Source: Siphonodentalium dalli (lineage: Eukaryota > Mollusca > Scaphopoda > Gadilida > Siphonodentaliidae). From it: a stretch of DNA of 64,000 nt. The first letter of the stretch is position 1. Each line of letters starts with the position of its first letter. Shown here piece after piece: positions 7,386-62,880 of the stretch. A model generated the notes under the pieces. The model was given only the letters and a program-made list of their open reading frames with translations. It made no database searches and had not been told where the DNA came from. The translations under genes and the position numbers were made by a program. The stretch covers positions 250,305,582 to 250,369,581 of the forward strand of contig CP136061.1 in the NCBI GenBank assembly GCA_032622095.1, given 5' to 3'.

Positions 7386-7394
7386 GTTTAGAAT

Positions 7395-46016: not shown

Positions 46017-46453
46017 AGTAGTAATGGGGGGCACTATGGCCCAGTACCCCCCAGTGGGGGGCACTATGGCCCAGTACCCCCCAGTGGGGGGCACTATGGC
46101 CCAGTACCCCCCAGTGGGGGGCACTATGGCCCAGTATCGAATACTGGACCATAGATCGTCCAGTATTCGATACTGGGCCATAGTGCCCCCCAGTGGGGGG
46201 CACTATGGCCCAGTATCGAATACTGGACGATCTATGGTCCAGTATTCATTACTGGGCCATAGTGCCCCCCACTGGGGGGTACTGGGCCATAGTGCCCCCC
46301 ACTGGGGGGTACTGGGCCATAGTGCCCCCACTGGGGGGTACTGGGCCATAGTGCCCCCACTGATGGGTACTGGGCCATAGTTCCCCCCTGAGGATAGATA
46401 TTCCTGTCATTGATGTGATATTTCTGATCGGAAAAAATGAAAATGGACTTAGA
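46017..46453. repeat. Left terminal inverted repeat of element 2
   Basis: The 437-bp repeat is itself an inverted repeat. Four 30-bp units (CACTATGGCCCAGTACCCCC, then CAGTGGGGGG) run inwards, then a pseudo-palindrome with GGACCATAGATCGTCC, a turn at about 46185-46200, a second one with GGACGATCTATGGTCC, and then the units in the opposite direction. A unique inner part ends GGACTTAGA at 46453. It matches the right repeat except for unit number and a few bases. Confidence 0.95.
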
Positions 46454-46533
46454 ATTATTTTTTTTCAAAAGGAAAATCTCACTTTGGAAAATATCAATTA
46501 GCAATCAAGAGTTTTTCTTTTCGAATATTTGGT

Positions 46534-46549
46534 GGCCCTGAAAAGGGCC
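46534..46549 (-). terminator. Histone-type 3' stem-loop after OTU-like gene (element 2)
   Basis: On the minus strand: ATAAAAC, GGCCCTTTTCAGGGCC, ACCAAATATT, then CGAAAAGAAAAACTCTTG. The stem lies 19 nt after the stop codon, and the purine-rich element starts about 12 nt after the stem. Confidence 0.75.
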
Positions 46550-46568
46550 GTTTTATTTTTGTTATAGT

Positions 46569-47036
46569 TTAGAATCCGCCACATTGAACTTCTTTGTTCG
46601 CCAAAACTTCAATTGATTTGTCTCCTCGCCTCATCCATATTTCGCATTCACAATAATGCTCGTGGCAAACGTGTGGGATCCACACTAGAGTTATTGATGA
46701 CTTGAATCTTGGTGTTGATTTGTAGCCGCCTTTGGTAGCATCAAACATGACGATAGGTCGCTGTATAACAGTCGCCGCTAATTCAACCATCAATCTTGAT
46801 TCAGCCAAAAGTGGTGTGCGCCGTAAATCTTGTGCCGACGCACCAAGTTCGTCACTCTCTGCGTAGTACAGGTCAACTGCCGCATCTCTCAGAACCATCC
46901 ATCCATCGGTCGTCCCGTAAACCGCAACGCTGAGTGCCCTCCAAAACAGAGATATTTCTTCGCCGCCGCACACTGCTTTACAGTATACCCCCTGTACCAT
47001 TATCTCGTCAAGATCTGTTATGTTTACAGCAGTCAT
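46569..47036 (-). CDS. OTU-like protein lacking the catalytic cysteine
   Basis: The protein has 155 residues from the ATG at 47036. This start is chosen over the upstream one at 47111 because the sequence TTCAAAGATG is shared with the duplicated cassette at 48641, and the genes diverge right after that ATG. The order of elements recalls the OTU fold: GGEE then LFWRALSVAVYGT, SRLMVELAATVIQRPIVMF, and an aromatic end with CECEIW. The usual DGxC nucleophile is not seen, so protease activity is unlikely. A ubiquitin-binding or pseudo-enzyme role is speculation. Element 1 carries a frameshifted homologue. It is transcribed outwards, towards the left terminus. Confidence 0.65.
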   Translation of the reverse strand: MTAVNITDLDEIMVQGVYCKAVCGGEEISLFWRALSVAVYGTTDGWMVLRDAAVDLYYAESDELGASAQDLRRTPLLAESRLMVELAATVIQRPIVMFDATKGGYKSTPRFKSSITLVWIPHVCHEHYCECEIWMRRGDKSIEVLANKEVQCGGF

Positions 47037-47659
47037 CTTTGAATGTAGAATAAGTCTGAAGATCCGTCTTGAACATATATTACGATTGTGCGGGCGGTAG
47101 AGAAAGCACATAATACTTTGACGTTAAAAATGACAAATGCTTCCTGACGTTGTGTTTCTTTACAGTGCATTATCTGTAGTTTTCACTATTTCGATATGTT
47201 ATAGATTAAATTCATGATAGTATATGCAATTAATTAAGATGTTTTAACATATGAATTCATCTTCGTTCATAAACGATGACCAAGTAAAGTTATCGATTGT
47301 AATGATGAAGAAAAATGTTCAGTATGTTTTCTTGTGTTCAGTTTTATGTATAAAATATGTACATCTCCAAAAACAAAACTAGAAAAACATTCCATATTTT
47401 CCTAACGAGGTAACAAATATATCAATCATGTATACCAAATAATAGATAATGATCTAACGAAATAAAAAACATTTGTTTGATCGCTATGCAATAATGATCA
47501 AGAAAAATATGAATGCTGATCCGTCTCTGAAAAAACACAACGCCAGGAAACATTTGTCAATTTTAACGTCAATGCGACATGTGATTTCATTGACGCCCGT
47601 GTCAAATGTATAAAAATATTTTCGAATTTGATCAACGTTACATTGCATTGCTATCAAAG
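47037..47659. promoter_or_regulatory. Divergent promoter cassette, copy A (OTU-like / gene Y)
   Basis: The DNA from about 47034 to 47623 is nearly the same as 48641-49234. The plus side has TATAAAAA (47609-47616), 44 bp before the gene Y ATG. Within the cassette, CAGGAAGCATTTGTCA/TTTTAACGTCAA-type motifs occur in opposite directions near both ends (about 47120-47160 and 47535-47575), as in a symmetric divergent promoter. Confidence 0.65.
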
Positions 47660-48148
47660 ATGGATCCGTTAACAGAATTTCTTCAGAGTGAGATATACAG
47701 TAATCCTGTTGTACAGAATACATATGCGGCACCACAGTCAACAGGCCAAGCTAATACGACAATGACTATAGGTGGTGATACACTCATTTTAAAAGCGATT
47801 TTAGATGAACTGAGATGTCTTCGCAGGGATATTGACGTGAAAACACAAGTAACGCATCAAGAAGTAAAAGTGAATCTTCGTTTCGTTGCAGAAGAGATAG
47901 ATATACCAATCAGGGTTCATGATGTTCAGAAATCGAAAGAACAGAAACAGATCAAAAAAGAAAAAATATTGGCTGCGAAAGAAAAAGAACCTAAAAGTAT
48001 CATGAAGCCTTCTACTGAGACAAAAGTCAGATTTCGTCTTCCTTGTAAAGAATCTAAAGATACAGAGAAAAGTGATGAATTCGCAAAAGCTATTGGTTCT
48101 CATGGGAAAGATATGTCAAGATATAAGAAAAACACAAAACGATGTTAA
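47660..48148 (+). CDS. Gene Y, conserved Polinton arm protein
   Basis: The protein has 162 residues from ATG 47660, which lies 44 bp after a TATA box; the in-frame start at 47606 would lie upstream of or within the TATA box and is rejected. Residues 1-40 are polar, residues 45-70 look helical (LILKAILDELRCLRRDI), and a conserved strand-like part (EEIDIPIRVHDVQK) is shared with the decayed copy at 7395-7785. The C-terminal half is rich in Lys and Glu and ends basic, suggesting nuclear localisation or nucleic-acid contact. Function unknown. A histone-type stem-loop follows after 22 nt. Confidence 0.7.
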   Translation: MDPLTEFLQSEIYSNPVVQNTYAAPQSTGQANTTMTIGGDTLILKAILDELRCLRRDIDVKTQVTHQEVKVNLRFVAEEIDIPIRVHDVQKSKEQKQIKKEKILAAKEKEPKSIMKPSTETKVRFRLPCKESKDTEKSDEFAKAIGSHGKDMSRYKKNTKRC

Positions 48149-48170
48149 AGTCAGATGATAATTTTAAAAC

Positions 48171-48186
48171 GGCCCTTTTCAGGGCC
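48171..48186 (+). terminator. Histone-type 3' stem-loop after gene Y (element 2)
   Basis: TTAAAAC, GGCCCTTTTCAGGGCC, ACACACATTTCCC, then AAAAGGTTACTCTTTCAT. It shares the downstream AAAGGTTACTCTTTCAT with the stem-loop at 49629. Confidence 0.75.
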
Positions 48187-48397
48187 ACACACATTTCCCA
48201 AAAGGTTACTCTTTCATTGCTGAAAAAATCAAAAACACGATTGTTCAATTTATATTTTATTCAACAACAAATATTTGCAAGTATATTTTGTTTTAAATTA
48301 TTCATGGCGTGATTTTTTCAAAACAAAACATAGGGTACAAAGAACATTATTAGTTATTAAGCAATGCTAAAAGTTTTTCTTTTTGAAAAAATTGGTT
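48187..48397. other. Spacer between convergent gene Y and 62-aa gene
   Basis: AT-rich, 211 bp. It holds the downstream elements of the stem-loops on both sides; no gene. Confidence 0.5.
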
Positions 48398-48413
48398 GGT
48401 CCTGAAAAGGACC
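48398..48413 (-). terminator. Histone-type 3' stem-loop, distal of a tandem pair (compensatory variant)
   Basis: On the minus strand GGTCCTTTTCAGGACC, followed by AACCAATTTTTTC and AAAAAGAAAAACTTTT. Relative to the usual copy, stem position 3 is T and its partner is A, so pairing is kept. Confidence 0.7.
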
Positions 48414-48425
48414 GTTTTTGTTTTT

Positions 48426-48441
48426 GGCCCTGAAAAGGGCC
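48426..48441 (-). terminator. Histone-type 3' stem-loop, proximal of a tandem pair
   Basis: On the minus strand CAAAAC, GGCCCTTTTCAGGGCC, then CAAAAACAAAAAC. It is 13 nt after the stop of the 62-residue gene. The ACCCA-like flank is weak and the purine-rich element follows only the distal copy. Confidence 0.65.
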
Positions 48442-48454
48442 GTTTTGTATGGCA

Positions 48455-48643
48455 TCAAAGTTCACGCCACGATTTTCTTTTGAGACTTTTGCTTTTGTTC
48501 CAACGCTGTTGTTTTTTGCATATTTGCATAACCAGTTTTGCACTGGCGGTTACTTCTTTTGCGTGTCCGGCCCGCATTATCTGGGGTGATAGCCCTATCG
48601 TTCCTCTTAGTATAGACATCAACGGTTCGGGGATTTCGGACAT
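48455..48643 (-). CDS. 62-residue basic protein driven by cassette copy B
   Basis: The start at 48643 is chosen because the preceding TTCAAAG is the same as before the OTU-like start in copy A. The protein begins MSEIPEPLMS, has a neutral middle and ends with a basic stretch (KSKSLKRKSWREL). Another frame (48462-48722) begins with MCFLYRP, encoded in the shared cassette, and cannot be fully excluded. No family is recognised. It ends 13 nt before a tandem pair of histone-type stem-loops, which supports it as a real transcript end. Confidence 0.5.
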   Translation of the reverse strand: MSEIPEPLMSILRGTIGLSPQIMRAGHAKEVTASAKLVMQICKKQQRWNKSKSLKRKSWREL

Positions 48644-49259
48644 CTTTGAATGCAGAATAAAAATTGTTCACGGCCGTGTTTGAACATATATCACGATTGC
48701 GCGGGCGGTAGAGAAAGCACATAATACTTTGACGTTAAAAATGACAAATGCTTCCTGACGTTGTGTTTCTTTTCAGTGCATTATCTGTTAGTTTCACTAT
48801 TTCGATATGTTATAGATTAAATTCATGATAGTATATGCAATTAATTAAGATGTTTTAACATATGAATTCATCTTCGTTCATAAACGATGACCAAGTAAAG
48901 TTATCGATTGTAATGATGAAGAAAAATGTTCAGTATGTTTTCTTGTGTTCAGTTTTATGTATAAAATATGTACATCTCCAAAAACAAAACTAGAAAAACA
49001 TTCCATATTTTCCTAACGAGGTAACAAATATATCAATCATGTGTACCAAATAATAGATAATGATCTAACGAAATAAAAAACATTTGTTTGATCGCTATGC
49101 AATAATGATCAAGAAAAATATGAATGCTGATCCGGTTCTGAAAAAACACAACGCCAGGAAACATTTGTCAATTTTAACGTCAATGCGACATGTGATTTCA
49201 TTGACGCCCGTGTCAAATGTATAAAAATATTTTCACTTTTTCAGTGAACTTCATTCATT
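48644..49259. promoter_or_regulatory. Divergent promoter cassette, copy B (62-aa gene / LYPDL gene)
   Basis: It is nearly identical to copy A from about 48690 to 49234. TATAAAAA (49220-49227) stands 40 bp before the LYPDL-gene ATG, and TCAGTGAAC near 49241 could be the initiator. Similarity stops just after the TATA box on the plus side and at the ATG on the minus side. Confidence 0.65.
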
Positions 49260-49610
49260 ATGCCGTCTCTAAAGAAATTTATCAAGAAGCTATGGAGGAA
49301 GAGAGATTCGTCAGAGGAGACGAAAATCAGAACCTATAGGAAATGGCAGGATTCTCCTGAACAAAAGGTGGTGCAGAAACAGATGTTAACAGATTTTCTG
49401 GCTCGGCGACGACCATCGGCTGAAGTATGTGATCAAGAACCAAGCAATCTTGATCTCGTGGAGATCTTGTCACAGATCTCGAAGAAAGATCTGTGCAATG
49501 CAGCAATTGACAGCTTCGCTCAGGCTGCTGCGGCGCACAGTTCAAACCCTACTTGGTCTGTGACAATTAATCCCAACGGGATATATCCTGATTTGGCAGA
49601 ATTTTTATGA
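49260..49610 (+). CDS. LYPDL-type motif protein of element 2
   Basis: This 116-residue protein has a basic helical N-terminus (KKFIKKLWRKR), a region ending DFLARRR (residues 45-51), an Asp/Leu helix (NLDLVEILSQISKKDL) and an Ala-rich stretch. The end is GIYPDLAEFL, with YPDL at residues 109-112. The element 1 homologue has two LYPDLSEF copies. YPxL motifs of this class bind ALIX in known viral late domains; here that is inferred. It starts 40 bp after a TATA box, and a histone-type stem-loop follows 18 nt after the stop. Confidence 0.7.
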   Translation: MPSLKKFIKKLWRKRDSSEETKIRTYRKWQDSPEQKVVQKQMLTDFLARRRPSAEVCDQEPSNLDLVEILSQISKKDLCNAAIDSFAQAAAAHSSNPTWSVTINPNGIYPDLAEFL

Positions 49611-49628
49611 ATTCTGGAAAAGAAAAAC

Positions 49629-49644
49629 GGCCCTTTTCAGGGCC
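49629..49644 (+). terminator. Histone-type 3' stem-loop after LYPDL gene (element 2)
   Basis: GAAAAAC, GGCCCTTTTCAGGGCC, ACCCACATTCCCC, then AAAAAGGTTACTCTTTCAT. This is the closest match of all to the animal histone consensus, including the ACCCA flank. Confidence 0.8.
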
Positions 49645-49718
49645 ACCCACATTCCCCAAAAAGGTTACTCTTTCATAGCTGAAAAAAACAAAACAAAACA
49701 CGATTGTTCAATTCATAA

Positions 49719-49724
49719 TTTATT
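49719..49724 (-). terminator. AATAAA polyadenylation signal for the zinc-knuckle gene
   Basis: On the minus strand AATAAA lies 32 nt after the stop at 49756. No stem-loop follows this gene. Confidence 0.55.
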
Positions 49725-49755
49725 CACAATATAATTTTCAAATGTTTGTATCGAT

Positions 49756-50331
49756 TCATTTATCTGTTTTTGGAATGTAGAATTGTCTCAGCTTCTTTTT
49801 CTTGGAAGTTTTCTTGGAATTTTCAAAATCTGGATGCTTATCTTCAGATTTGTTCTGTGAATCATTCGTAGGATCAACAGGTCGGGGTTGTTTGAAAACA
49901 TCTGATGTTGTAGACATCTCTTCAGTTTTGATAACTGCATTTTGTTCTTGTATTGTTACTGCTTGTAGACTTTTTTGTATAGTTTTCACATTTTTTTTGT
50001 CGTCGAAATCTGTTTTACATTGGAAGGACCAATGGGAGTCTTGTCCGCATTTGTAACAGTAACCATATGGTGGTTTCCAATTTTTATCAGCTTTGTTTTT
50101 CTCTTGTTTCTCTTGCCATTGCATTTTGTTACAAAATTTAAACAAATCAGTAGAGATCTGTCTCAATTCGACAAGATTATCTTGAATTTTTCTAGTCTGT
50201 AGTAGTGTAGATTCTTCTTTATGCAGCTCAATATAGCTCTCTTCAATAACTGCAGGCCTTGGTCTTTTTCTAACAATATCTTCTTCGCTGGCGGAGTCGT
50301 CTGAAACAGGTCTTTTGATTCTCTTAAACAT
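49756..50331 (-). CDS. Zinc-knuckle (CCHC) protein of element 2
   Basis: A 191-residue protein. Residues 1-32 (MFKRIKRPVS, then acidic, then RKRPRPAVIEES) are the same as the first 32 of PolB because of an inverted duplication. The knuckle is C92, C95, H100, C105, preceded by WKPPYG. The tail is lysine-rich (KKTSKKKKLRQF). The element 1 homologue lacks the shared N-terminus. Likely a nucleic-acid-binding helper of replication, made divergently with PolB. The basic N-terminus may be a nuclear signal. Confidence 0.75.
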   Translation of the reverse strand: MFKRIKRPVSDDSASEEDIVRKRPRPAVIEESYIELHKEESTLLQTRKIQDNLVELRQISTDLFKFCNKMQWQEKQEKNKADKNWKPPYGYCYKCGQDSHWSFQCKTDFDDKKNVKTIQKSLQAVTIQEQNAVIKTEEMSTTSDVFKQPRPVDPTNDSQNKSEDKHPDFENSKKTSKKKKLRQFYIPKTDK

Positions 50332-50646
50332 TTTTGTCTTGAGTTTTTGTCAGCAAAAAATATTGCGACTGGCTTCTTCGGAGTTGAAGTGTAAAGTGTA
50401 TAATTACACAATTTTACACTTGCTTTTATAGCATTTTTCATCGTGACTGCTATAAAAGCAGGTGTTAAAATTGTGTAATTATACACTTTACACTTCAACT
50501 CCGAAGAAGCCAGTCGCAATATTTTTTGCTGACAAAAACTCAAGACAAAAATGTTTAAGAGAATCAAAAGACCTGTTTCAGACGACTCCGCCAGCGAAGA
50601 AGATATTGTTAGAAAAAGACCAAGGCCTGCAGTTATTGAAGAGAGC
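50236..50646. promoter_or_regulatory. 195-bp inverted duplication: shared promoter and N-terminus
   Basis: The arms 50236-50430 and 50451-50646 are nearly perfect complements around a 20-bp centre. Each has TATAAAAG at its inner edge (minus 50423-50430, plus 50451-50458), a start codon about 100 bp away (50331 and 50551) and 32 identical codons. Differences are one or two bases near the centre. Such a match implies recent duplication or conversion. Confidence 0.9.
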
Positions 50647-53600
50647 GAAATGGAAACTGATGAGGCAGAAAGTGAAGAGAGCGATATGGAAACTGATGAG
50701 GCAGAAAGTGAAGAGAGCGATATGGAAACTGATGAGGCAGAAAGTGAAGAGAGCGATATGGAAACTGATGGAGGCGAAAGTGAAGAAAGTTCTAGTGATG
50801 GTCAGATTGGACGCGGTCGAAGACAGAATAGAGAAATTGGTGGGAAGAGAAAGAGAAGTCTGGCTAGAGAGCGTGTTGTGTTCAATCCAACAAAATATTT
50901 CAAATTGGAGCTGAACTCGGAGAAATTTTCCAGAAAATTTAAATCAGCATCACGACAATTTGGTGTGAAATTCGAGAAATTTACAGATCCAATCGAAAAC
51001 ATTCCAGAGATATTTGAGAAGTTGACAGAAGAATTGAAACAGAAATGTTCAGCAAATGAGAAGACAAGAATCAGAGTTACGATAAATCATCCAGGACTTG
51101 ATATGAACATTTTCATTCCATTCACAAAAGCCAGTGAATTGAATGGTGAGACACTCATGGATAATATTCAAAATGTGGTTCAATCAAATGCAGACTTTAC
51201 AATTCATGACGGTGCACTCAATTTCGAAATCTTCGTTACAGATATTCCGGAAGGTGGTACACGACACTCACTACATTATGGACCATTTGCAGACAAGAAC
51301 AAGCTTACAAAAGTGAAAAGAAGTATTGTCCGGATTGAAAATGCTGATGATGTTATGTGTATGGCAAGATCTATTGTCGTCGGAATGTGTAAGGCAGATA
51401 GTGATGGATCTGCGTGCTGGTCAAAGAAATGGAAAAGAATAAGACAATCAATATACACAGCACAAACAGATGCAGCAAAAAATCTACTCAACCGTGCTGG
51501 TATTCCACACGATACAGTTTGCAGTATCAATGAGTTCCACAAGATTCAAGAAATATTGTATCCAGAATATGTTGTGAAAATTCACAATGAATTTGCTGGC
51601 GCTGGATTTCTATTTGAACCTGCAGAAATGTGTTTGGAGAGCAAATGTGTACACATCTACTACAACAACAATCACTTCGACACCATAACATCAATCAAAG
51701 GATTTCTAGGCACCAGCTACTACTGCGAATTCTGTGACATTGGATTCAAAAGTCGTGGCGATCATCGATGCAGATTTGTTTGTGCATGCTGGTCATTGAC
51801 ACAGTGTAATTTCACAAATTTGGTGAAGTGTAGAACGTGTCGACGATCATTCAGAAGTAAATCTTGTTTCGACAACCATTTGAAGACGGAAGGAAAACAG
51901 AAAAGAAAAATATGTGATTTGGTTCAACTATGCAACATTTGTGATGAAGAATTTCTCATCAATAAATCAAACAGACATATATGTGCGGGGTTGAAGAAAT
52001 GCAAACATTGCAAAGAAATCGTTGAAGCAGATCACAGGTGCTACATTCCAAAATATGAATCACCGGAAAAGAAACCTGCAAAGATTCCATATGTATTCTT
52101 TGACTTTGAATGCAGACAAGACACAGGTGTTCATATTCCAAACTTCTGTGTTGCACATACCGCTTGTGGAGATTGCATGTGCAAACCAATCGAAGAAAAA
52201 TGTGAAACATGCGGACCGGATTCCAGAGAATTTGTATTCAAGGGTGACAACGTTTTAACAGACTTCACAAACTGGTTATTCCATCAAGATCACAAAGGAT
52301 GTGTTGCAATAGCACATAATGCTCAGGGATACGATGCACAGTTTCTACTTCAAGCACTCATACAAAGTGGAATTCATAAACCAGAACTGATCATGAATGG
52401 AAACAAAATTCTCAGTTTAAAATGCAACAGCGTGAAAGTTATTGATTCTCTGAGTTTTCTGATGATGCCGCTTTCAAAATTTCCACAAACTTTTCAGCTG
52501 AATGAGATGGCAAAAGGACACTTTCCACATTGGGCGAATTCACCAAAGTTTCAAAATTACATTGGACCTTACTTGGCTTGTGATTACTACAAACCAGATA
52601 TGATGAGCGTGGAAAATCGAGAGAAATTCTTTGAATGGTACAATGAGAAAATAGAAAATTATGCGATATTCAACTTCCAAGAAGAGATAGAGAAGTACTG
52701 CAAATCAGACGTGGATATTCTTCGCCGTGGATGTGGAAAATTCAGGAAATACATATTGGAAACAGAACAGATTGACCCGTTCATTGAGTCAATAACATTG
52801 GCACAAGTTTGCAATTTGGCATGGAGGAAGAATTCAATGCCAGAGAAAACAATTGGAATCATTCCAGATGGTGGATACCCATGTGCTAAAAACTATTCCA
52901 TGAAAGCGATACGTTGGCTTCAACATATATCATTGTCACGTATGATAACAATCAAGCATGCTTTGAATGGAGGAGAAATCAAGATTGGTGGACACTACGT
53001 CGATGGATATGAGGAAGCCACAAGAACAGTTTTTGAGATGAATGGATGTCTGTTTCATGGATGTCCAAAATGTTACAACAACAGACAATACAAGAATCCC
53101 TATACGATGCTCACCATGGAAGAATTATATACAAGAACCCAACAGAAGAAAGATGAACTGGAAAGTCTTGGTTACAGAGTTGAATCAATTTGGGAGCATC
53201 AGATCGACGAAAGAATGAAATCGGATGTGAAATTCAAACAACAAATGGAATCTTTCTACAAACATCGAGACCCCATTTTGCCAAGAGAAGCATTGTTTGG
53301 TGGACGTACAAATGCCATCAAATTGTACGAGGAAATTGATCAAGATTCCACAAAAGAAATCAAGTTCATCGATGTGTGTTCGTTGTATCCATTTTGCAAC
53401 AAATATAAATTCTACCCTGTTGGACATCCAGAAATTTTGAGCCAAGAGCAGATCGATCAAGAACACATTAGAGACTATGCGGGGCTTGTTAAATGTACAA
53501 TTTTACCACCATCGAAATTGTATATTCCAGTTCTACCGATTCATTGTAACAAGAAAATGGTTTTTACTCTGTGCAACACTTGTGCCATCAATGAGAACGA

Positions 53601-54624
53601 GGCATGTAACCATTCAGAAGAAGATCGAGCTATAACCGGAGTGTGGACCACGCCAGAATTATTCAAAGCAATGGATGTTGGCTACAAAATACTTGATGTG
53701 TACCAAATTTGGCATTGGACAGATTGGACAGATGAAATATACAAATCCTATATCGATAAACATCTAAAGATCAAACAGGAATGTAGTGGTTATCCATTTG
53801 GTGTTGAGACAGAAGAACAGAAACAAAAGTTTGTACAGGATTATTATGCAGCTGAGGGTATAAAATTGGAGAACATCGAGAAGAATCCAGGAAAACGTCA
53901 AATATCTAAAATTATGATTAATTGTATATGGGGTAAGAATGCACAAAGAAATCTTATGTCAAAAACAGAGTATGTGGATAAACCATCACGTTATTTTGAA
54001 TTGCTTACTAGTAACAATATAATTGTTCAAAATGTTACACTTCTTGATGGTGACAAATTCATTCTGGTAAATTATGTTGACATCTTAGATAATATTGAAC
54101 CTCATCATTCAGCAAATGTTGTTGTTGCTTCTTTTGTTACAGCGTATGCAAGATTACAATTGTATAAAGTTTTAGAAAAACTTGGAGATAGAGTGCTGTA
54201 TTTTGATACAGACAGCTGTATGTATGTCAGTGATCCATCAAAGAAGAACATCAAAACTATCGAAGGAAGATTGGGGAAATGGAGCGACGAACATCCAGAT
54301 GCAAAGATTGTCAAATTTGTTGGACTTGGGCCAAAGAACTACGGATATGAATACATCAAAGATGGGAGAAGATACACCAAATGTAAGGTAAAAGGTATCA
54401 CTCTTGATTACAGCACAAGTCAAAAAGTTAATTTTGAAACAATGGTACAATGTGTTAATGATCGTGAAAATTTCAAAACTGTTGTTGAGTATCCTTCCAG
54501 AATTAAAAGACAAAAGAACCATCAATTGATTAGTGAGTGTCAAACCAAAACTTTCAGATCGGTGTACACAAAACGAAAACTCGTCAATGGTATTCATACA
54601 TACCCATACGGATGGAGATGTTGA
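50551..54624 (+). CDS. PolB: Protein-primed DNA polymerase B
   Basis: 1357 residues, a usual length for Polinton polymerases. After the shared N-terminus comes an acidic tandem repeat of 12 residues (31-85). A cysteine/histidine-rich zinc-finger region lies at about 392-496. The 3'-5' exonuclease has FFDFE (D518, E520), AHNAQGYD (from 588) and YCKSDVD (Y716, D720). The polymerase has motif A DVCSLYP (D941), motif B with K1120, N1124 and WGKNAQ, and motif C YFDTDS (1217-1222). All catalytic residues are present. It copies the element using a terminal protein as primer, as known for the family; which region is the primer is not clear. Confidence 0.96.
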   Translation: MFKRIKRPVSDDSASEEDIVRKRPRPAVIEESEMETDEAESEESDMETDEAESEESDMETDEAESEESDMETDGGESEESSSDGQIGRGRRQNREIGGKRKRSLARERVVFNPTKYFKLELNSEKFSRKFKSASRQFGVKFEKFTDPIENIPEIFEKLTEELKQKCSANEKTRIRVTINHPGLDMNIFIPFTKASELNGETLMDNIQNVVQSNADFTIHDGALNFEIFVTDIPEGGTRHSLHYGPFADKNKLTKVKRSIVRIENADDVMCMARSIVVGMCKADSDGSACWSKKWKRIRQSIYTAQTDAAKNLLNRAGIPHDTVCSINEFHKIQEILYPEYVVKIHNEFAGAGFLFEPAEMCLESKCVHIYYNNNHFDTITSIKGFLGTSYYCEFCDIGFKSRGDHRCRFVCACWSLTQCNFTNLVKCRTCRRSFRSKSCFDNHLKTEGKQKRKICDLVQLCNICDEEFLINKSNRHICAGLKKCKHCKEIVEADHRCYIPKYESPEKKPAKIPYVFFDFECRQDTGVHIPNFCVAHTACGDCMCKPIEEKCETCGPDSREFVFKGDNVLTDFTNWLFHQDHKGCVAIAHNAQGYDAQFLLQALIQSGIHKPELIMNGNKILSLKCNSVKVIDSLSFLMMPLSKFPQTFQLNEMAKGHFPHWANSPKFQNYIGPYLACDYYKPDMMSVENREKFFEWYNEKIENYAIFNFQEEIEKYCKSDVDILRRGCGKFRKYILETEQIDPFIESITLAQVCNLAWRKNSMPEKTIGIIPDGGYPCAKNYSMKAIRWLQHISLSRMITIKHALNGGEIKIGGHYVDGYEEATRTVFEMNGCLFHGCPKCYNNRQYKNPYTMLTMEELYTRTQQKKDELESLGYRVESIWEHQIDERMKSDVKFKQQMESFYKHRDPILPREALFGGRTNAIKLYEEIDQDSTKEIKFIDVCSLYPFCNKYKFYPVGHPEILSQEQIDQEHIRDYAGLVKCTILPPSKLYIPVLPIHCNKKMVFTLCNTCAINENEACNHSEEDRAITGVWTTPELFKAMDVGYKILDVYQIWHWTDWTDEIYKSYIDKHLKIKQECSGYPFGVETEEQKQKFVQDYYAAEGIKLENIEKNPGKRQISKIMINCIWGKNAQRNLMSKTEYVDKPSRYFELLTSNNIIVQNVTLLDGDKFILVNYVDILDNIEPHHSANVVVASFVTAYARLQLYKVLEKLGDRVLYFDTDSCMYVSDPSKKNIKTIEGRLGKWSDEHPDAKIVKFVGLGPKNYGYEYIKDGRRYTKCKVKGITLDYSTSQKVNFETMVQCVNDRENFKTVVEYPSRIKRQKNHQLISECQTKTFRSVYTKRKLVNGIHTYPYGWRC

Positions 54625-54640
54625 GTCATTTCATGTCAAG

Positions 54641-55237
54641 ATGTTGGCAGGAGTAGTACCTCCAGAAATTGCTGAGAAGATTTATGGATATTTGGTGGCA
54701 CAGTCAACGCTTATTCCAGAGATAAAGAAGGAATTACAAGAAGTCTGGTTTGAAAGAGAAAAGAAAGCAATACTACGATGCTGTGATGTCGGCGAATGTT
54801 TACAGAGATTGGCCTATCTTGAGTCAAGTATATCTTCTCATTTCTCTCAAAAATATATTGAATCATTTATTAAATTCAAAACATTTTTTCTCATTGAAAA
54901 AATATCTGATTTTTGGACATTTGGTGCTGATCAACACCATTTAGATTTAGATTTAGGAACTTTTGATGAACATGACTATATTCATTATACAAAGTATGAT
55001 GATCATTTACCTCTTGATGGGGGAACTTTTGAATCAGTTCCTAGGATCTATGGGTATTTGTTAACAAAAAAAATGTCAACATATGCAAAAATTAAAAACA
55101 TTTTGGGGGATGATTTTTTTATTTACAGAACAAAGCACAGAAGAATAGAAGACTATGATGATTGGATTATTGAAATGTATGGAAATATTTACAGCTTTGG
55201 AGATTTCGGTTTAAAAACTAAATTCACACGTCGTTAA
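54641..55237 (+). CDS. Conserved Polinton protein following PolB
   Basis: 198 residues from ATG 54641, chosen because it gives a start like that of the homologue at 1-389; a longer frame from 54533 would overlap PolB by about 90 bp. Conserved near the start: PPEIAEKIYGYL, then IPEIKKELQEVWFERE. The rest is aromatic and acidic, with few landmarks. No known domain is seen. Its fixed place after PolB in two diverged elements argues for a real gene with a conserved role. Confidence 0.7.
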   Translation: MLAGVVPPEIAEKIYGYLVAQSTLIPEIKKELQEVWFEREKKAILRCCDVGECLQRLAYLESSISSHFSQKYIESFIKFKTFFLIEKISDFWTFGADQHHLDLDLGTFDEHDYIHYTKYDDHLPLDGGTFESVPRIYGYLLTKKMSTYAKIKNILGDDFFIYRTKHRRIEDYDDWIIEMYGNIYSFGDFGLKTKFTRR

Positions 55238-55270
55238 GTTCACTCTCTGATTAGACATCAAAGTGACAAC

Positions 55271-55921
55271 ATGGAAGAATCTTTACTTTTCCAACATCCG
55301 TGTAATTTCTTTATCAGCGGCCCTAGTGGATCAGGTAAAACAGAATTTGTTAAAAAAGTTATTGAATTTAAACACGATTTATTCCAAACACCACCAAAGA
55401 AAATAGTTTGGTGTTACAAAGAATGGCAAGACACATACAATCGTATAAAAGAAATTGATAACGTTAAGTTTATCGATGGTATTCCAGACGATGATGAGGA
55501 AATTGTATCAGATAAATCATTTCCTCATCTTGTTGTTTTCGATGACATGATGGGGGAACAAGATGAAGACAAAATAATGCTTTGGTTTACTAGAAAAGGT
55601 CATCATCGAAATGCTTCAATAATTTACATTACTCAAAACATGTTCCAAAAATCAAAAAGTAGCAGAACTATAAGTTTGAATGCACACTACATGGTTTTAT
55701 TTCAAAGCGTTCGAGATAAAAATCAAATAAAAGTTTTGGCTCATCAAATGCAAACCAATCATTTGAAACAAGCATACGAAGATGCAACTTCAATAAATCA
55801 TGGATATATTTTAGTAGATTTTCATCCTAGAACAGAAAATTATTTGCGAATTAGAACTGATATTTTCCATAAATGGTTGACAGCTAATGACCGAGGTCCT
55901 GTCATATATTCAAAAGTATAA
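55271..55921 (+). CDS. ATP: DNA-packaging ATPase (A32/FtsK-like)
   Basis: 216 residues. Walker A GPSGSGKT (17-24), Walker B LVVFDD (87-92), and a downstream TQN (sensor-like) in IIYITQNMF. This is the compact ATPase shared by Polintons, virophages and large DNA viruses, which pumps the genome into the capsid. Length is typical. Confidence 0.93.
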   Translation: MEESLLFQHPCNFFISGPSGSGKTEFVKKVIEFKHDLFQTPPKKIVWCYKEWQDTYNRIKEIDNVKFIDGIPDDDEEIVSDKSFPHLVVFDDMMGEQDEDKIMLWFTRKGHHRNASIIYITQNMFQKSKSSRTISLNAHYMVLFQSVRDKNQIKVLAHQMQTNHLKQAYEDATSINHGYILVDFHPRTENYLRIRTDIFHKWLTANDRGPVIYSKV

Positions 55922-55955
55922 ATTCAGTTGTTGTTATTTTTTTCATTTTAGAACC

Positions 55956-56543
55956 ATGTCGTCCACCGAGATGTTTAGTCGTGATGAACTGTCACAAATT
56001 ATAAATTTCTTCACTTTTGCAGCTGAATTATTTCTTGAAAATGATTGGAAATTACCATCACAGACAAAAAAGTTTTTTCAGAGAAATAAAAATGTTCTTA
56101 AAAAAATCTCTGATCGATCAACTGATATGGAAACAAAACGCAAATTAATTTTACAACGAGGTGGTAGTGGGTTTCTTGGAGGAGTTTTAATTAGAAGTCT
56201 TTTGAAAAATTCATTTGAACAAACTGGTAGACAATCTAAAAGTAAATCAAAGGTTTCTCCAAAACGTTCAAAGATTACTCGGAAGCAAACACAACAAAGA
56301 GGTAATCAAAAAGAATCTAAACGTAAAACAAAGCTTTCTCTAAATCATTCAAAGTTTACACCGATGCAAACTCAACAAAATCAACATTCTAAATTTACAC
56401 CTATACCTTCTCAGCAGAACCCTCAACATCAACCGTTACAAAAAAAACCAGTTATTGATCTTGAATTTTCAAAATTTATGCCGTTGTCTGATGCATCGAA
56501 ATCTGCATTCGAAGCTTTAGAATGGTTCAATCCGAAAAGATAA
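55956..56543 (+). CDS. Basic GG-motif protein, probable virion component
   Basis: 195 residues from ATG 55956, just after TTTTTTTCATTTTAG, which looks like a 3' splice site. A helical N-terminus is followed by KRKLILQRGGSGFLGG (61-76) with a hydrophobic stretch. Then comes a long Lys/Ser/Gln-rich tail with three SKF-P repeats. The KxxLxQ-GG-FL block also occurs in the next gene, so the two are probably paralogues. GG sites are common cleavage sites for adenain-type proteases, but the exact consensus is not met. Role in the virion is inferred. Confidence 0.65.
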   Translation: MSSTEMFSRDELSQIINFFTFAAELFLENDWKLPSQTKKFFQRNKNVLKKISDRSTDMETKRKLILQRGGSGFLGGVLIRSLLKNSFEQTGRQSKSKSKVSPKRSKITRKQTQQRGNQKESKRKTKLSLNHSKFTPMQTQQNQHSKFTPIPSQQNPQHQPLQKKPVIDLEFSKFMPLSDASKSAFEALEWFNPKR

Positions 56544-56599
56544 AAGATGAAACATATAATTTTTCTGCTCATTTTGAGACAACTACTTAGACTGTGAAG

Positions 56600-56962
56600 A
56601 TGCCTTCAAAAACTAAGAGCCGGAAAGCACCGCTGATAAAAAAATATGGTGAGTTGATTGTTGCAATGAGTAAAGTTCCATCTGCATATAAAAAGAAAAT
56701 GATCAACGATGCTCCGAAACAAGTGATGGATTGCATTTCAGAATGTTGTCAAAATCTTTTAAAAGGTAATGTAAAACTGAATGAAGCTCAGAACCGCAAG
56801 TTACATTCGAAGCGTAAACATATCAGATATCTTGCAGACAAGAACAAACCTTTGCAACAAAAGAAGAAAATTTTGAATCAAAAAGGTGGCTTTTTACCAT
56901 TATTATTTCTTGCTCCATTGATTAGCAAAACATTAGGTGCAGTTGTTAAAAATATTTTGTAA
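56600..56962 (+). CDS. Small basic GGFLP protein, probable virion component
   Basis: 120 residues from ATG 56600. The first 95 are basic and helical (KKYGELIVAMSKVP, ..., KRKHIRYLADK...KKKILNQ). Then GGFLP (96-100) begins a hydrophobic C-terminus (98-118). This arrangement is frequent in Polintons and adintoviruses. A membrane-active or core role after cleavage at GG is inferred, not known. Confidence 0.7.
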   Translation: MPSKTKSRKAPLIKKYGELIVAMSKVPSAYKKKMINDAPKQVMDCISECCQNLLKGNVKLNEAQNRKLHSKRKHIRYLADKNKPLQQKKKILNQKGGFLPLLFLAPLISKTLGAVVKNIL

Positions 56963-56982
56963 AAACTAAATCTCAAATAAAT

Positions 56983-57690
56983 ATGAAGAAAATGGTTATT
57001 GTACCATTCAGAATGTTGGAAGATTTCAAACAATGGGAAATGTCAGAAATGAATAAACCTCAATTACCTCCTGATCCTGCAATTTCAAATGTTTCAGATT
57101 CTTACAAAGAATTGAAATCAGTTTATGATAAAAATATTTCTGAATCAGAAAAGTCACAGTTATTTGGAGAAAATTTGTACAAATTGAAAACTTCACAAAA
57201 ATCTTTAAATTCAAAATTCAGATTACCTGAACAAAAGTTATCTGAAAACTTTGGGAAAATGAGTGACCATATATTGGAAAGTGTGCCATCTAAATTTCGT
57301 GGTAAAGCACAACAAATTTTATCATTGTTGTCAACTAATCCTAAACTTAGATGGGATGATCGTGGACAATTAATTTATGGAACAGAAACAGTTACTGGAT
57401 CAAATATAATTGATTTGATAAACGATGTTGTTCGTCACCGAAAAGGTTTTAACCCAGTTGGTTATGAAACATTCCTACGTGGATTGGGGGAACTTAATAT
57501 ACCACAAGATTATGTAGGTAACAGGGATCGATGGCTGTGGATGCAAAGACATTTAAAAGGTCACACTGGTGATGAGTTTCATACACCTCATGCAACTCCT
57601 ATCAGTGGCAAGTCAAGAAAACGTTCAGTTGATATTTTAACACCAGAAACCAGAAAAACTATTTTGAAAGGATGGTCCTCACTTACATAA
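56983..57690 (+). CDS. Conserved Polinton 235-residue protein
   Basis: Polar N-terminal half, then a conserved C-terminal half: LLSTNPKLRWDDRGQLIYG, GSNIIDLINDVVR and PVGYETFLRGLGELNIPQDYVGN, with RHLKGH and a basic tail. I know similar sequences as a common unnamed Polinton protein. No enzymatic motif. Its stop overlaps the integrase start by 19 bp, so the two are closely linked. Confidence 0.7.
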   Translation: MKKMVIVPFRMLEDFKQWEMSEMNKPQLPPDPAISNVSDSYKELKSVYDKNISESEKSQLFGENLYKLKTSQKSLNSKFRLPEQKLSENFGKMSDHILESVPSKFRGKAQQILSLLSTNPKLRWDDRGQLIYGTETVTGSNIIDLINDVVRHRKGFNPVGYETFLRGLGELNIPQDYVGNRDRWLWMQRHLKGHTGDEFHTPHATPISGKSRKRSVDILTPETRKTILKGWSSLT

Positions 57691-58766
57691 AATTTGACAA
57701 ACTTCTAACTGAAATTTACTACAATCCAAAAGAAGTTGGTGGTTTCAGTGGAGCAAATCAACTTTTTAAAAATGCAAAAGAAACAAATAACAAAATTAAA
57801 CTTTCAGATGTTAAAAAATGGTTACAATGGCAAAAAACATATACTTTGCACAAACCAATTGTTCGGAAATTTCGCAGACGTAAAACTATTGTTGCAGGAA
57901 TTGATATTCAGTGGCAAGCTGATCTGGCAGATTTGCAAACTTTGCAAAAGCACAATGACAATTACAGATATTTACTTTGTGTTATTGATGTGTTCTCAAA
58001 ATTTGCATGGGTTGAAAAAATTAAAGATAAAACTGGTAAAACTTTAGTTAAAACATTTCAGAAAATTCTAAAATCATCAAAACGAAAACCAGCTTCATTT
58101 CAATCTGACAAAGGTTCAGAATTCAAAAATAAATTATTTTTACAATTTTTGAAATCTAAGAAAATTCATTTTTTCACAACAGAGAATCCAGAGACAAAAG
58201 CAAGTATAGTTGAACGTTTTCAACGGACATTGAAAACAAAGATGTGGAAATATTTTACACATAATCAAACTTTGAAATACGTTGATGTTTTGCACGATTT
58301 TGTGAATTCTTACAACAAAAGTTTTCATAGAAGTATTAAGATGGCACCAGTTTTAGTAACTCGAGAAAATGAAATTGAAGTTTCCAGAAATCTTTATGGA
58401 AAGTTAAAAACGAAAAAAGATAAGATGTTGAAAGTTGGAGATTTTGTTAGAATAAATAAAACAAAGAGAACTTTTGATAAAGGATATCTTCCAAATTGGA
58501 CAAAAGAAATTTTCAAAATTAGTAGAGTTTGTAAAAGTACACCATTAACTTACAAATTAGTAGATTTAGATGGTGAAAACATCGCAGGATCATTTTATGG
58601 TAAAGAAATTCAACATATAAAAGATAATAAAGTTTACGAAATTGAATCAGTTGTTGGTAAACGTTCAAGAAAAGTTGCTGGTAAATCAGTTAGAGAAATT
58701 AAAGTTCATTGGGCTGGTTATCCTAAAAAATTTGACAGTTGGATACCTGCCACAAATTTGGTATAA
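57672..58766 (+). CDS. INT: Retroviral-type integrase with C-terminal chromodomain
   Basis: 364 residues. The DDE core has D84 (WQADLADL), D146 (FQSDKGSEF) and E181 (ASIVERF), with 35-residue D-to-E spacing as in retroviral integrases. After the core, a beta-rich region (about 240-315) follows. A chromodomain closes the protein at about 319-364 (YEIESVV...KVHWAGYP...SWIP). It inserts the element and makes 6-bp duplications, as seen here. The chromodomain suggests targeting to marked chromatin. Confidence 0.95.
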   Translation: MVLTYIKFDKLLTEIYYNPKEVGGFSGANQLFKNAKETNNKIKLSDVKKWLQWQKTYTLHKPIVRKFRRRKTIVAGIDIQWQADLADLQTLQKHNDNYRYLLCVIDVFSKFAWVEKIKDKTGKTLVKTFQKILKSSKRKPASFQSDKGSEFKNKLFLQFLKSKKIHFFTTENPETKASIVERFQRTLKTKMWKYFTHNQTLKYVDVLHDFVNSYNKSFHRSIKMAPVLVTRENEIEVSRNLYGKLKTKKDKMLKVGDFVRINKTKRTFDKGYLPNWTKEIFKISRVCKSTPLTYKLVDLDGENIAGSFYGKEIQHIKDNKVYEIESVVGKRSRKVAGKSVREIKVHWAGYPKKFDSWIPATNLV

Positions 58767-58776
58767 AACTTTTAAC

Positions 58777-59040
58777 ATGTCTCAAAATGGTTCAGTTGGT
58801 CTCGATGCTCCATCACAATTTCAAATCTGTGGAGAAAAAATTGCAAAAAATCAAGTAACATATTTTACACAAATTATTATAATTGTTGGTATAATCGCTA
58901 CAGCAATTGTTCATTTAAGTTTACAAAGTGAAAATAACGAACTGTGGTTAATTTTACTCAGTAGTTCTTTGGGGTACATTTTACCAACACCGCGTTTGAA
59001 ATATTTGAAAAATCAGTCGGCAGAAATTTTGAAAGTATGA
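58777..59040 (+). CDS. Small two-TM membrane protein
   Basis: 87 residues from ATG 58777. Two hydrophobic segments at about 28-49 (with IIIIVGIIATAIV) and 56-70 (LWLILLSSSLGYILP), then a basic tail. Small membrane proteins of this kind, ending G-ILP-P-LK, are frequent in Polintons. Function unknown; the stop overlaps the next start by 4 bp. Confidence 0.7.
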   Translation: MSQNGSVGLDAPSQFQICGEKIAKNQVTYFTQIIIIVGIIATAIVHLSLQSENNELWLILLSSSLGYILPTPRLKYLKNQSAEILKV

Positions 59041-59888
59041 ATCCTTTCTACATTACAATTCCGAGCGACAGTTCGATGGTAATGTATCCAAACAATACTC
59101 AATGTTGTTTTACTGTACAATTACCAAAACCAGTTCAAATTGATAAAGAAAAATGGGAAGTTGCATTAGCCGAACTGATAACACCTTCAGAAACATACAA
59201 TGTTACAGGGGATTCGTGTAAATTCAATTTGATTACAACTGATGCAATATTACTGTCTGTTCTTCAAAATCGTTTTGAAGAAAAGATATTTAAGAGACCT
59301 GATGGCGTTCATGCACTTGAAATACAGATACAAAATGGTTCGTATACCTCTGCGACAGATTTAGTTGATACAATGCAAGATGTAATTGATGAAACACTTG
59401 GAGAAGCAATGCAAAACGAATACGGATTTCACATCGGGTACTCAAAAGGTACAAAACGTGTGAAAATTATTCGCAAGAGTTTAAGTAACACAAAACTAGG
59501 AATTGAATTACCACAATGTCTTTTGCACAAGTTGGGTTACAAAACTGAAAACGCTTCTGAAGATTTTTATTCAAATAATAGATTTCCGTTTGGTGTAGAT
59601 TTGAATGTTGGTCATAATCTAATGTTTGTTTATTCTGATATTGCCGATTACACATTTGTTGGAAATGTTGAAGTACAAATTTTACGAGTTGTTTCTTTCA
59701 GAAGTAAAAGAGATATCGACGGATTACATGTAAAACATGAATTTTTAAATTTACATTATGTTCCAGTTTCAAAGTCATACTTTGACAAAATTAGTGTAAA
59801 TATAAGTGGCGACACAGGAAAATCAATTCAGTTTATCGGTGGTAAGTCTTTGGTGAAGCTACATTTCAGAAAACGAGAGGAGTTCTAA
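59037..59888 (+). CDS. mCP: Minor capsid protein (penton-like)
   Basis: 283 residues. The N-terminus has FYITIPSDSSM, NNTQCCFTVQLP and the conserved W40EVALAELITPSE, typical of the Polinton minor capsid protein, a predicted single jelly-roll that forms pentons. The remainder is strand-rich. It sits directly before the major capsid gene region, as is usual. Assignment is by pattern, without a search. Confidence 0.75.
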   Translation: MNPFYITIPSDSSMVMYPNNTQCCFTVQLPKPVQIDKEKWEVALAELITPSETYNVTGDSCKFNLITTDAILLSVLQNRFEEKIFKRPDGVHALEIQIQNGSYTSATDLVDTMQDVIDETLGEAMQNEYGFHIGYSKGTKRVKIIRKSLSNTKLGIELPQCLLHKLGYKTENASEDFYSNNRFPFGVDLNVGHNLMFVYSDIADYTFVGNVEVQILRVVSFRSKRDIDGLHVKHEFLNLHYVPVSKSYFDKISVNISGDTGKSIQFIGGKSLVKLHFRKREEF

Positions 59889-59893
59889 AAACA

Positions 59894-60268
59894 ATGTTCC
59901 CCGTGTATAGAGGCGTACCACGGCAATATGGTAATGGTATTGGTTCAATTTTCAAATCAGTTATGAGATCTGCTATACCATTTCTAAAACCGCTTGGTCG
60001 GACAGCTTTACAACTTGCGAAAAAACACACTTTTGGTGTTGCAGATGAAATTATTAATCAAGGTAAAAGTCCGAAAGAAGCGTTGATGTCTGAAGGTAAA
60101 AAAGCTTTAAAATCTTTTGGCACACAAGCTAAAAATCAAATTTTGAACTCGAGAAAAAAACCTAGAAAAAGAGTAGCGACTTCAAAAATGAATCATTCAG
60201 CTGTCAAACGCCGAAAAAGTCAGTCGAAAAATCATCCTAGCAGTCGAGCTCTTGATATTTTTGATTAA
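59894..60268 (+). CDS. Small basic protein, probable virion component
   Basis: 124 residues. N-terminus GNGIGSIFKSVMRSAIPFL (13-31) is amphipathic, then a region with LAKKHTFGVADE. The C-terminal half is strongly basic (RKKPRKR). Proteins with GxG-xxF amphipathic starts and basic tails are found next to capsid genes in many Polintons and resemble adenoviral pVI/core proteins in layout only. DNA or membrane contact is inferred. Confidence 0.65.
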   Translation: MFPVYRGVPRQYGNGIGSIFKSVMRSAIPFLKPLGRTALQLAKKHTFGVADEIINQGKSPKEALMSEGKKALKSFGTQAKNQILNSRKKPRKRVATSKMNHSAVKRRKSQSKNHPSSRALDIFD

Positions 60269-60270
60269 TC

Positions 60271-61575
60271 ATGGCACAAATGGTAAATGGATCATGCGAA
60301 TGCAATAAATCGGAACTTGACATAACACATGTTCCACCAACGGTGGCTACAATGTCAGAATCGCAGTGGATCGAAAATCATCCTATTGCACCGCTGAATA
60401 ATTCTGCTCCGATAGAGTTTGTCATACCATCTCAAACCGAAAAGTGGACAGATATTAATCAATCTTATCTTTATGTGAAATTCAAAATTACAAAAAAAGA
60501 TGGAACTAATTTGGTAGCTGCTACGGAATTAGCACCTGTTAACAATTTCTTTCATAGCATGTTCAGCAGTATCGATGTTTACTTGAACAACAAATTGATA
60601 ACTTCGAATTCTGACACTTACCCATACCGAGCATATTTCGAAAATCTGTTGGGATACTCTCAAGAATATAAAGATAATCAATTAGCAAATTTAGAAATGT
60701 GGTATGGCGATACAGCAGAACAATTTGAAGAGAGCACCAAAGGTGGTACTAATGCTGGATTAACTTCTAGAGAAAGTTTGATCACTGGTAGTAAATTTGT
60801 TGAACTATGCGGACGCTTACACACCGATCTGTTTCTTCAAGAAAAATATTTACCAAATGGAATTGAAATTCGTATCAGATTAAACAGATCACCATCAAAA
60901 TTTTGCCTCATTGGCTCCGAGGATGGACAAATTGTTTTCGAATCAGCAGTGTTCCATGTCAGAACAGTTAGTCTCTTTCCAGCGGTCTCAAATAAATTAA
61001 ATCAAGAAATTGCCCAGTCAAAAATGAAACTACCTATCAGACGAGTAGAAATAAAAACTTTCACAATTAGTACTGGACTTAGATCAAAAATTGAAGACCA
61101 CTTATTTCAAGGACAATTACCAAAGAGACTTTTTATTGCGTTGGTCGAAAATAAAGATATGAATGGAGATTTGGGTACCAATCCATTCCACTTCAAACAT
61201 TTCAGTTTGAATAAATTGGAAGTTAGTCAAGACGGTCATACAATACATAACCGTCCATTTGAACCAAACTTCGCAACAAAACAATGTCTCAGATCATATT
61301 TATCTTTGTATCAATCTTTAGGAATGTTTGGTGTTAACAAATCAATTGGCATTAATTTAAAAGAATATATGAATGGTTATTGTTTGTGGGGTTTCGACTT
61401 GACACCGGACCAAGGAAGCGACGAGGGACATCTACATCCTATAAAGACAGGGAACCTGCGTTTGGAGCTTCAGTTCTTGACAGCTCTCACTACAGCCGTC
61501 AACGTTTTGGTGTATGCTGAATTCGACAGTGAAATAGAGATCACAGCTTTGAGAGAAGTGCTTACTGACTATTAG
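60271..61575 (+). CDS. MCP: Major capsid protein (double jelly-roll)
   Basis: 434 residues, a common length. Conserved landmarks: NSAPIEFVIP (44-53), FFHSMFSSIDVYLNNKLI (93-110), YPYRAYFENLLGYS, and GRLHTDLFLQEKYLPNG followed by RIRLNRSP. These mark the Polinton major capsid protein, which forms trimeric hexon-like units of an icosahedral shell. Confidence 0.92.
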   Translation: MAQMVNGSCECNKSELDITHVPPTVATMSESQWIENHPIAPLNNSAPIEFVIPSQTEKWTDINQSYLYVKFKITKKDGTNLVAATELAPVNNFFHSMFSSIDVYLNNKLITSNSDTYPYRAYFENLLGYSQEYKDNQLANLEMWYGDTAEQFEESTKGGTNAGLTSRESLITGSKFVELCGRLHTDLFLQEKYLPNGIEIRIRLNRSPSKFCLIGSEDGQIVFESAVFHVRTVSLFPAVSNKLNQEIAQSKMKLPIRRVEIKTFTISTGLRSKIEDHLFQGQLPKRLFIALVENKDMNGDLGTNPFHFKHFSLNKLEVSQDGHTIHNRPFEPNFATKQCLRSYLSLYQSLGMFGVNKSIGINLKEYMNGYCLWGFDLTPDQGSDEGHLHPIKTGNLRLELQFLTALTTAVNVLVYAEFDSEIEITALREVLTDY

Positions 61576-61576
61576 G

Positions 61577-62495: not shown

Positions 62496-62880
62496 ACTTC
62501 ACCAGCACATCGACGGCTGATATACATACAACGCAAAGAAGACGACGACCAGATAACAACGAATGTGTCAACAACTCCACAAAATAGACTCTTTTGTTAT
62601 TGATTCAGCGTAGGATGTTGTAGGATGTTATAGGATGTTCAATTAAGTTTCTTCAAATCTGAGACCTTGTTTTGTACATAAATTATTGTTCTTTGTTAAT
62701 ATTATTGATGTATAATAATATATTATTGTTCATTGTTCTTGTTCTTGTTTTTGAAAAATAAATGATAAATTTCAACAAAATCGTTTTCACTGTAGGATCC
62801 CCACCAATTGATTCTGTTCGTGTCGATGTGTCATCTCTGGTCAGAATTATACAAACTTTAAAATTAGTAATGAAAAAATG
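62496..62880. other. 3' non-coding region of the late cluster
   Basis: AT-rich. Short repeats of TAGGATGTT at 62610-62640. AATAAA at 62757-62762 is a probable polyadenylation signal for the rightmost genes. No histone-type stem-loop is present here. Confidence 0.55.

Follow-up and report, generated by a model that had tools for sequence, protein, structure and literature searches.

Histone-type 3' ends are taken to mark a gene as a replication-dependent histone gene. In the histone pathway, the transcript is cut 4-5 nucleotides (nt) after the stem of a hairpin, with the U7 RNA paired to a downstream element (PMC7026596). Hairpins of the same Rfam class have been met in a related group of mobile elements: a collection of Polinton-like viruses (PLVs) and virophages holds six matches to the 'histone 3'UTR stem-loop' (UTR, untranslated region), counted without discussion in the parts of the text considered here, which give neither gene context nor host comparison (PMC12220804). 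The locus described here lies in an animal genome. A 64,000-nt stretch of the scaphopod mollusc Siphonodentalium dalli (assembly GCA_032622095.1, contig CP136061.1, positions 250,305,582 to 250,369,581, forward strand; the window) contains two Polintons, element 1 and element 2, whose small genes are followed by hairpins of this type, and we consider it very probable, from sequence, that these genes end their mRNAs by a 3' signal of the replication-dependent histone type. Polintons, or Mavericks, carry polymerase B, integrase, ATPase, protease and capsid genes; element 2 has these together with terminal inverted repeats, and differs in having, in addition, a group of small genes whose 3' ends are of histone type. 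Relative to the PLV and virophage matches, as presented in those parts of PMC12220804, our analysis adds the position of the hairpins at gene ends, their sense orientation, their match to the host and their recurrence across lineages. The initial annotation of the window knew of no such description in Polintons, a statement that the same six matches limit; beyond them we found, in the open-access literature searched, no account of such signals being used by Polintons.

The exact 16-mer GGCCCTTTTCAGGGCC occurs at six sites in the window, 46534-46549 (-), 48171-48186 (+), 48426-48441 (-), 49629-49644 (+), 4873-4888 (-) and 7370-7385 (-), and two variants bring the total to eight: 48398-48413 (-), where GGTCC...GGACC is a compensated pair change, and 7098-7113 (+), where the loop reads TTTA. 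With up to three mismatches allowed there are nine matches against 0.16 expected in shuffles (nine at eight sites, one of them being matched on both strands), which confirms the hairpins first noticed after the small genes of both elements. The Rfam covariance model of the histone 3' stem-loop, RF00032, reaches its gathering score at five of the eight sites and stays below it at 48426, 7370 and 7098. Folding of seven stretches that span all eight sites predicts a 6-bp stem and a 4-nt loop, with z-scores against shuffles of -1.3 to -5.2 (weakest in 49618-49672 and 7340-7395). The six-pair stem is as the initial annotation had it, but its flanks are not: the constant bases upstream are AAAC rather than AAAAC, and the bases that follow, given as ACCCA or ACC, vary among ACC, ACA, ACT, TCA, AAA and AAC.

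We examined 18 open reading frames (ORFs) of element 2: each of the four small genes has a hairpin 3' of it, in sense to the gene, and the other 14 have none. Gene A (155 amino acids (aa); 46569-47036, -) has its hairpin at 46534, 19 nt after the stop (RF00032 41.8 bits over 46508-46554). Gene B, or gene Y (162 aa; 47660-48148, +, read from an ATG that matches its homologues), is followed after 22 nt by the hairpin at 48171 (40.1 bits), and gene D, or LYPDL (116 aa; 49260-49610, +), after 18 nt by that at 49629 (42.6 bits over 49624-49669). Gene C (62 aa; 48455-48643, -) has two: one at 48426, 13 nt after the stop and below the gathering score, with a second hairpin 3' of it in place of a downstream element, and this second one, the compensated variant at 48398, 41 nt after the stop (37.1 bits), with the downstream element CAAAAAGAAAAAC. 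The first hairpins of element 2 thus bear out the 13-22 nt gap originally reported. The neighbouring zinc-knuckle gene (gene E; 49756-50331, -) serves as a contrast, with no hairpin and with AATAAA 32 nt after its stop, as does the DNA polymerase B gene (50551-54624, +), also without a hairpin.

Element 1 has such hairpins too. Its LYPDL homologue (4908-5261, -) is followed after 19 nt by the hairpin at 4873 (38.0 bits), with AAAGATAC downstream, and its gene A homologue (6746-7084, +) after 13 nt by the TTTA-loop hairpin at 7098. The hairpin of the gene Y homologue (7275-7580, -), at 7370, lies inside the frame as read in the window copy, the only site in the window that does not stand in sense just 3' of a stop; in two further copies of the element-1 type, at loci L079 and L080 of our genome survey, the Y stop falls 19 nt before the hairpin.

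The same signal is found in the host. We searched the genome (2.23 Gb, nine contigs) with RF00032 and found, among the 75 candidates scored out of 409,530, tandem arrays on contigs C5 and C8; three loci of the C5 array have the same 16-mer hairpin preceded by AAAC. Histone H4, H2B and H2A genes (loci L006 and L008) have the hairpin 29-36 nt after the stop, within an AAAC-GGCCCTTTTCAGGGCC block identical to that of the Polintons. The host also has an SLBP gene, on contig C2, where the RNA-binding domain PF15247 matches in one exon at E 3.1e-13; a second PF15247 match on C2 (E 3.9e-4) has a stop inside the matched stretch, probably an exon edge.

A downstream element is present as well, although not evenly. 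In element 1 the purine-rich element of the initial annotation is clear: AAAGATAC begins 14 nt after the hairpin of the LYPDL and Y homologues in the window and of the gene A homologue at locus L053 (shuffle P 0.002 each), within one base of the host offset, since host H2A and H2B have AAAGATAA 15 nt after the hairpin. In element 2 it is weaker. A further motif, ATTGCT at +29 to +35, is common to three of three host histone flanks and five of eight Polinton flanks, with the first hairpin of the 62-aa gene left out; we suggest, as speculation, that it also pairs with U7. Likeness to a histone mRNA 3' end (SLBP stem-loop plus U7 element) thus takes in the six-pair stem, the 4-nt loop, the AAAC and the whole block shared with H2A, H2B and H4, together with the downstream element of element 1. 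Unlike the histone case, the downstream element of element 2 is divergent, the 62-aa gene has tandem hairpins, and the genes are small, non-histone genes of a virus-like mobile element (no histone Pfam family matches among the small genes tested).

How far does the association reach in this genome? The 19-nt pattern ACGGYYCTTTTCAGRRCCA has 2,841 matches, host histone hairpins included, and its reversed control none. In coordinate order, the first 30 matches stem from about ten insertions, and each stands beside a Polinton small gene and on its strand; in two cases the alignment of the protein extends over the hairpin. Ten 6-kb regions picked for single or unusual hairpin clusters, two of which contain matches already among those 30, all contain a Polinton, and seven of the ten reach the RF00032 gathering score; at one, L049, the gene beside the hairpin matches at 28%, and 115 nt separate the end of its alignment from the hairpin. 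Of ten more regions, six taken around dispersed RF00032 matches, nine contain a Polinton. We rejected the tenth, L070 (C1:26379500-26382000), as a Polinton site: its 2.5 kb match no Polinton protein tested and no H2A, H2B, H3 or H4, H1 not having been searched. L070 has a hairpin at 921 (-) of 37.5 bits, with a host-like downstream element and ATTGCT, and an ORF that by eye looks protease-like or zinc-finger-like ends about 425 nt upstream of it.

For a census of gene ends we took 22 loci (L046-L055, L062-L071, L079 and L080) and counted protein matches reaching within 5 residues of the end of the query gene with 90 nt beyond; element-1 gene Y was left out, and one LYPDL end matching two queries was counted once. 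The hairpin is intact at 26 of 29 small-gene ends and damaged at the other three (all gene A, in L046, L052 and L054, by one or two stem-breaking changes), so that no end lacks a trace of it. Other genes contribute 14 ends (zinc-knuckle seven, protease two, and five more genes with a single end each), and the hairpin occurs at none of these. The element-2-type zinc-knuckle ends carry AATAAA in six cases of six. Because 20 of the 22 loci were chosen by hairpin, the rate itself is biased upward; the contrast between small and other genes is unaffected by this choice. The remaining two loci, L079 and L080, were chosen regardless of hairpins. A search with an oyster Polinton polymerase (35 candidates scored out of 2,826) gave two matches outside the element-2 family, both of element-1 type, one with two stops in its frame; in the 7 kb upstream of the polymerase, each has open homologues of three small genes, all three followed by a hairpin (19 nt after the stop for Y, 13 nt for A, 19 nt for D), and a zinc-knuckle gene without one. 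RF00032 finds all six of these sites at E <= 2e-4, two of them above the gathering score. The other 33 of the 35 scored polymerase matches look like copies of the element-2 family whose frames, of 1363-1387 aa, are open and free of stops, which suggests a recent expansion of that family.

The trait recurs in at least three lineages within this one genome: element 2 with its subfamilies, element 1 with its relatives, and L049/L068. Between elements 1 and 2 the small proteins are 29-36% identical (gene A 33%, LYPDL 29%, and Y 36%, where only 33 residues align), and the genes are ordered differently, A and Y being divergent in element 2 and convergent in element-1-type loci. Across nine gene-by-lineage Polinton representatives, with the near-duplicates Y_L047, OTUsub_L051 and Ysub_L051 left out, mean identity is 1.00 over the AAAC and 0.97 over the hairpin, against 0.31 upstream and 0.32 at +26 to +70; with three host histones added, the figures are 1.00, 0.99, 0.28 upstream and 0.31 downstream. 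Between lineages, conservation is limited to the 20-nt block and some of the downstream element, and the flanks are at background identity. For the genes followed by hairpins, dN/dS (the ratio of nonsynonymous to synonymous change) between copies is 0.10-0.67, except in one comparison without synonymous changes, for matches of 40-96% identity over at least 50 residues with stop codons skipped, many values resting on few changes. Gene A gives 0.33-0.66 and LYPDL 0.10-0.35, and the 62-aa gene is open in its copies, whose changes are too few for a verdict on selection; the ratio is above 1 in two zinc-knuckle comparisons, and some copies have stops. Gene A of element 1 and its counterpart at L053, the most divergent near-complete pair with both stems intact, have an unchanged stem at dS 0.68 and dN/dS 0.13; the hairpin comparison had set aside repeated contexts and hairpins with a broken pair. 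The gene A copy at L050 (52% protein identity, one stop, dS 0.86) keeps its hairpin, and that at L052 (dS 0.51) has a damaged one.

Taken together, the histone-type signal proposed by the initial annotation is partly supported: the covariance match, the sense position, the recurrence among lineages, the block shared with host H4, H2B and H2A, the similar downstream element and the SLBP gene speak for it, and several results weigh against it. In element 2 the match of the flanks to the host form AAAAAGATA is mostly not significant (shuffle P 0.03-0.40), and after the OTU-like gene of L049 the downstream element is absent (P 0.91). Both this motif and ATTGCT, moreover, were picked once the flanks had been seen. 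A U7 small nuclear RNA was not found by an Rfam family search whose controls were silent too, nor by a pattern that gave five matches, none convincing, against nine in the reversed control. L047, L050 and L052 have no RF00032 match at the gathering score, four of the six hairpins of L079 and L080 fall below it, and several copies have damaged hairpins or frames, though this is expected of old insertions. Beyond this genome, six distant polymerase contigs from GTDB (25-33% identity; three longer than 7 kb) have no RF00032 match up to E 1. On present sequences, therefore, the trait would be ascribed to homologous genes of at least three Polinton lineages of this genome and not extended to Polintons in general. 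IMG/VR yielded no relatives by capsid or polymerase proteins or by alignments; seven contigs there matching a 17-mer hairpin pattern were taken as chance, none of the seven reaching the RF00032 gathering score.

Might the hairpin serve the message in some other way? It could bind SLBP for stability, export or translation while many transcripts are still polyadenylated. Dual processing has a host precedent, that of H2A.X mRNA, the subject of PMC7807067, and the downstream element is weak in several element-2 genes. AATAAA lies immediately before the gene A hairpin, so poly(A) processing is possible there, and again 194 nt past the stop of the 62-aa gene. Yet neither AATAAA nor ATTAAA occurs in the 400 nt that follow the stops of Y and LYPDL, and the downstream element of element 1 is host-like, and we hold dual or SLBP-only use to be rather unlikely, if worth keeping in mind. 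A role mainly in stopping transcription between tightly packed convergent genes, with the histone-like signal as the means of the stop and cell-cycle control beside the point, would suit the convergent pairs Y/62-aa and LYPDL/zinc-knuckle in element 2 and Y/OTU and LYPDL/zinc-knuckle in element-1-type loci; against it, the outermost small gene of element 2, gene A, has a hairpin and no convergent neighbour inside the element, and hairpins stay with their genes while gene order differs, so that this explanation appears improbable.

Two further explanations would deny the hairpins any part in mRNA 3' ends. One histone 3' end might have been captured once and copied with the element as passive cargo, without present use, which would fit the near-identity of the hairpins and the fact that most classified matches belong to one expanded family; conservation confined to the 20-nt block and a portion of the downstream element, across lineages with small proteins so diverged and genes in a different order, and with flanks at background, makes this very hard to sustain. 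Equally, a near-palindromic sequence could act in DNA, as a cruciform or as an integrase or replication site, although 30 of 30 unselected sites are in sense to the adjoining gene and the loop, the AAAC, the downstream element and the covariance-model match all fit an RNA signal; we give this the least credence of all.

Returning to histone-type 3' processing, we can sketch how it would operate. In element 2 the left end consists of two divergent pairs of small genes followed by the divergent zinc-knuckle/polymerase pair, and the small genes would be driven from the two near-identical divergent spacers between them. These spacers share a 300-nt stretch at 98% identity, and a 24-nt promoter-region motif, CATTTGTCAWTTTTAACGTCAAWG, occurs once for each small gene: at 47116-47139 (-) upstream of gene A, 47551-47574 (+) upstream of Y, 48727-48750 (-) upstream of gene C and 49162-49185 (+) upstream of gene D, with TATAAAA 51 nt before the ATG of Y and 40 nt before that of D. 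The window has four copies with up to three mismatches and shuffles none, and the scan found no copy at the zinc-knuckle or polymerase gene. The whole spacers, 47091-47599 and 48702-49210, are near-copies of each other, each palindromic inside (about 80% inverted repeat), with one motif facing each gene. Transcription from them would give pre-mRNAs with the hairpin 13-22 nt after the stop and, about 14 nt beyond it, the downstream element; SLBP of the host would attach to the hairpin, the U7 small nuclear ribonucleoprotein would pair with the downstream element, and cleavage would follow 4-5 nt after the stem, leaving an mRNA that ends in the hairpin instead of poly(A) and depends on SLBP. Its abundance would then track SLBP, and so host S phase, when the nucleotides and replication factors needed by a DNA element are available, and the small genes may be early ones, as the initial annotation supposed. 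Poly(A) would be left to the polymerase and morphogenesis genes and to the zinc-knuckle gene, which has AATAAA and lacks a hairpin. The broader proposal, that a clade of animal Polintons runs a small-gene regulon through the host histone mRNA pathway, with shared divergent promoters, a stem-loop and U7 element, and non-polyadenylated S-phase messages that couple the element to host DNA replication, seems to us evenly poised between right and wrong.

The rest of element 2 (46017-63346, 17.3 kb, delimited by repeat search, Pfam and homologues, with arms at about 46017-46461 and 62873-63346) is that of a Polinton. Pfam recognises polymerase B (PF03175, E 6.8e-39), an integrase (PF00665, RVE, E 1.3e-12) that carries a chromodomain, and an A32-type ATPase (PF04665, E 1.3e-8), with an adenain-type protease just under the cut-off (PF00770, E 5.8e-4). 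The protein at 60271-61575, without a Pfam match and with homologues in clam and oyster genomes, we take to be the capsid from its place in the element. The putative label 'OTU-like' for gene A is that of the initial annotation; a structure model of the protein was too poor to use (mean predicted local distance difference test score, pLDDT, 45), and a protein search with gene A, in which 39 candidates had words in common with it, left no homologue at E <= 0.01. A 189-nt near-perfect inverted repeat (50228-50416 and 50466-50654) lies between the genes for zinc-knuckle and polymerase, and their two proteins are identical over about 32 N-terminal residues (MFKRIKRPVSDDSASEEDIVRKRPRPAVIEES). In rearranged copies at L051 (5105-5262), L063 (1-298) and L064 (2596-3001) a fragment of the polymerase stands in place of LYPDL or is joined to it, and in L051 a hairpin is still 3' of the junction. 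In element 1, a protein (KEEPPKKKTPARRRRDAARRAKWKKK) encoded at 5564-6205 has a relative beside host H2B (L006, 2154-2921), from which it seems that element 1 and the histone array have each received an insertion of an unrelated repeat. At 11015-16672, long ORFs overlap on both strands, possibly as a repeat array.

If the small genes do end their messages in this way, a virus-like mobile lineage would show one way to time expression to S phase, and the thousands of such hairpins in the genome could compete for SLBP and U7. The transcripts would be poorly visible to oligo-dT RNA sequencing, and Polinton expression may therefore have been underestimated. The signal would also provide a testable handle on the Polinton genes that act in replicating cells.

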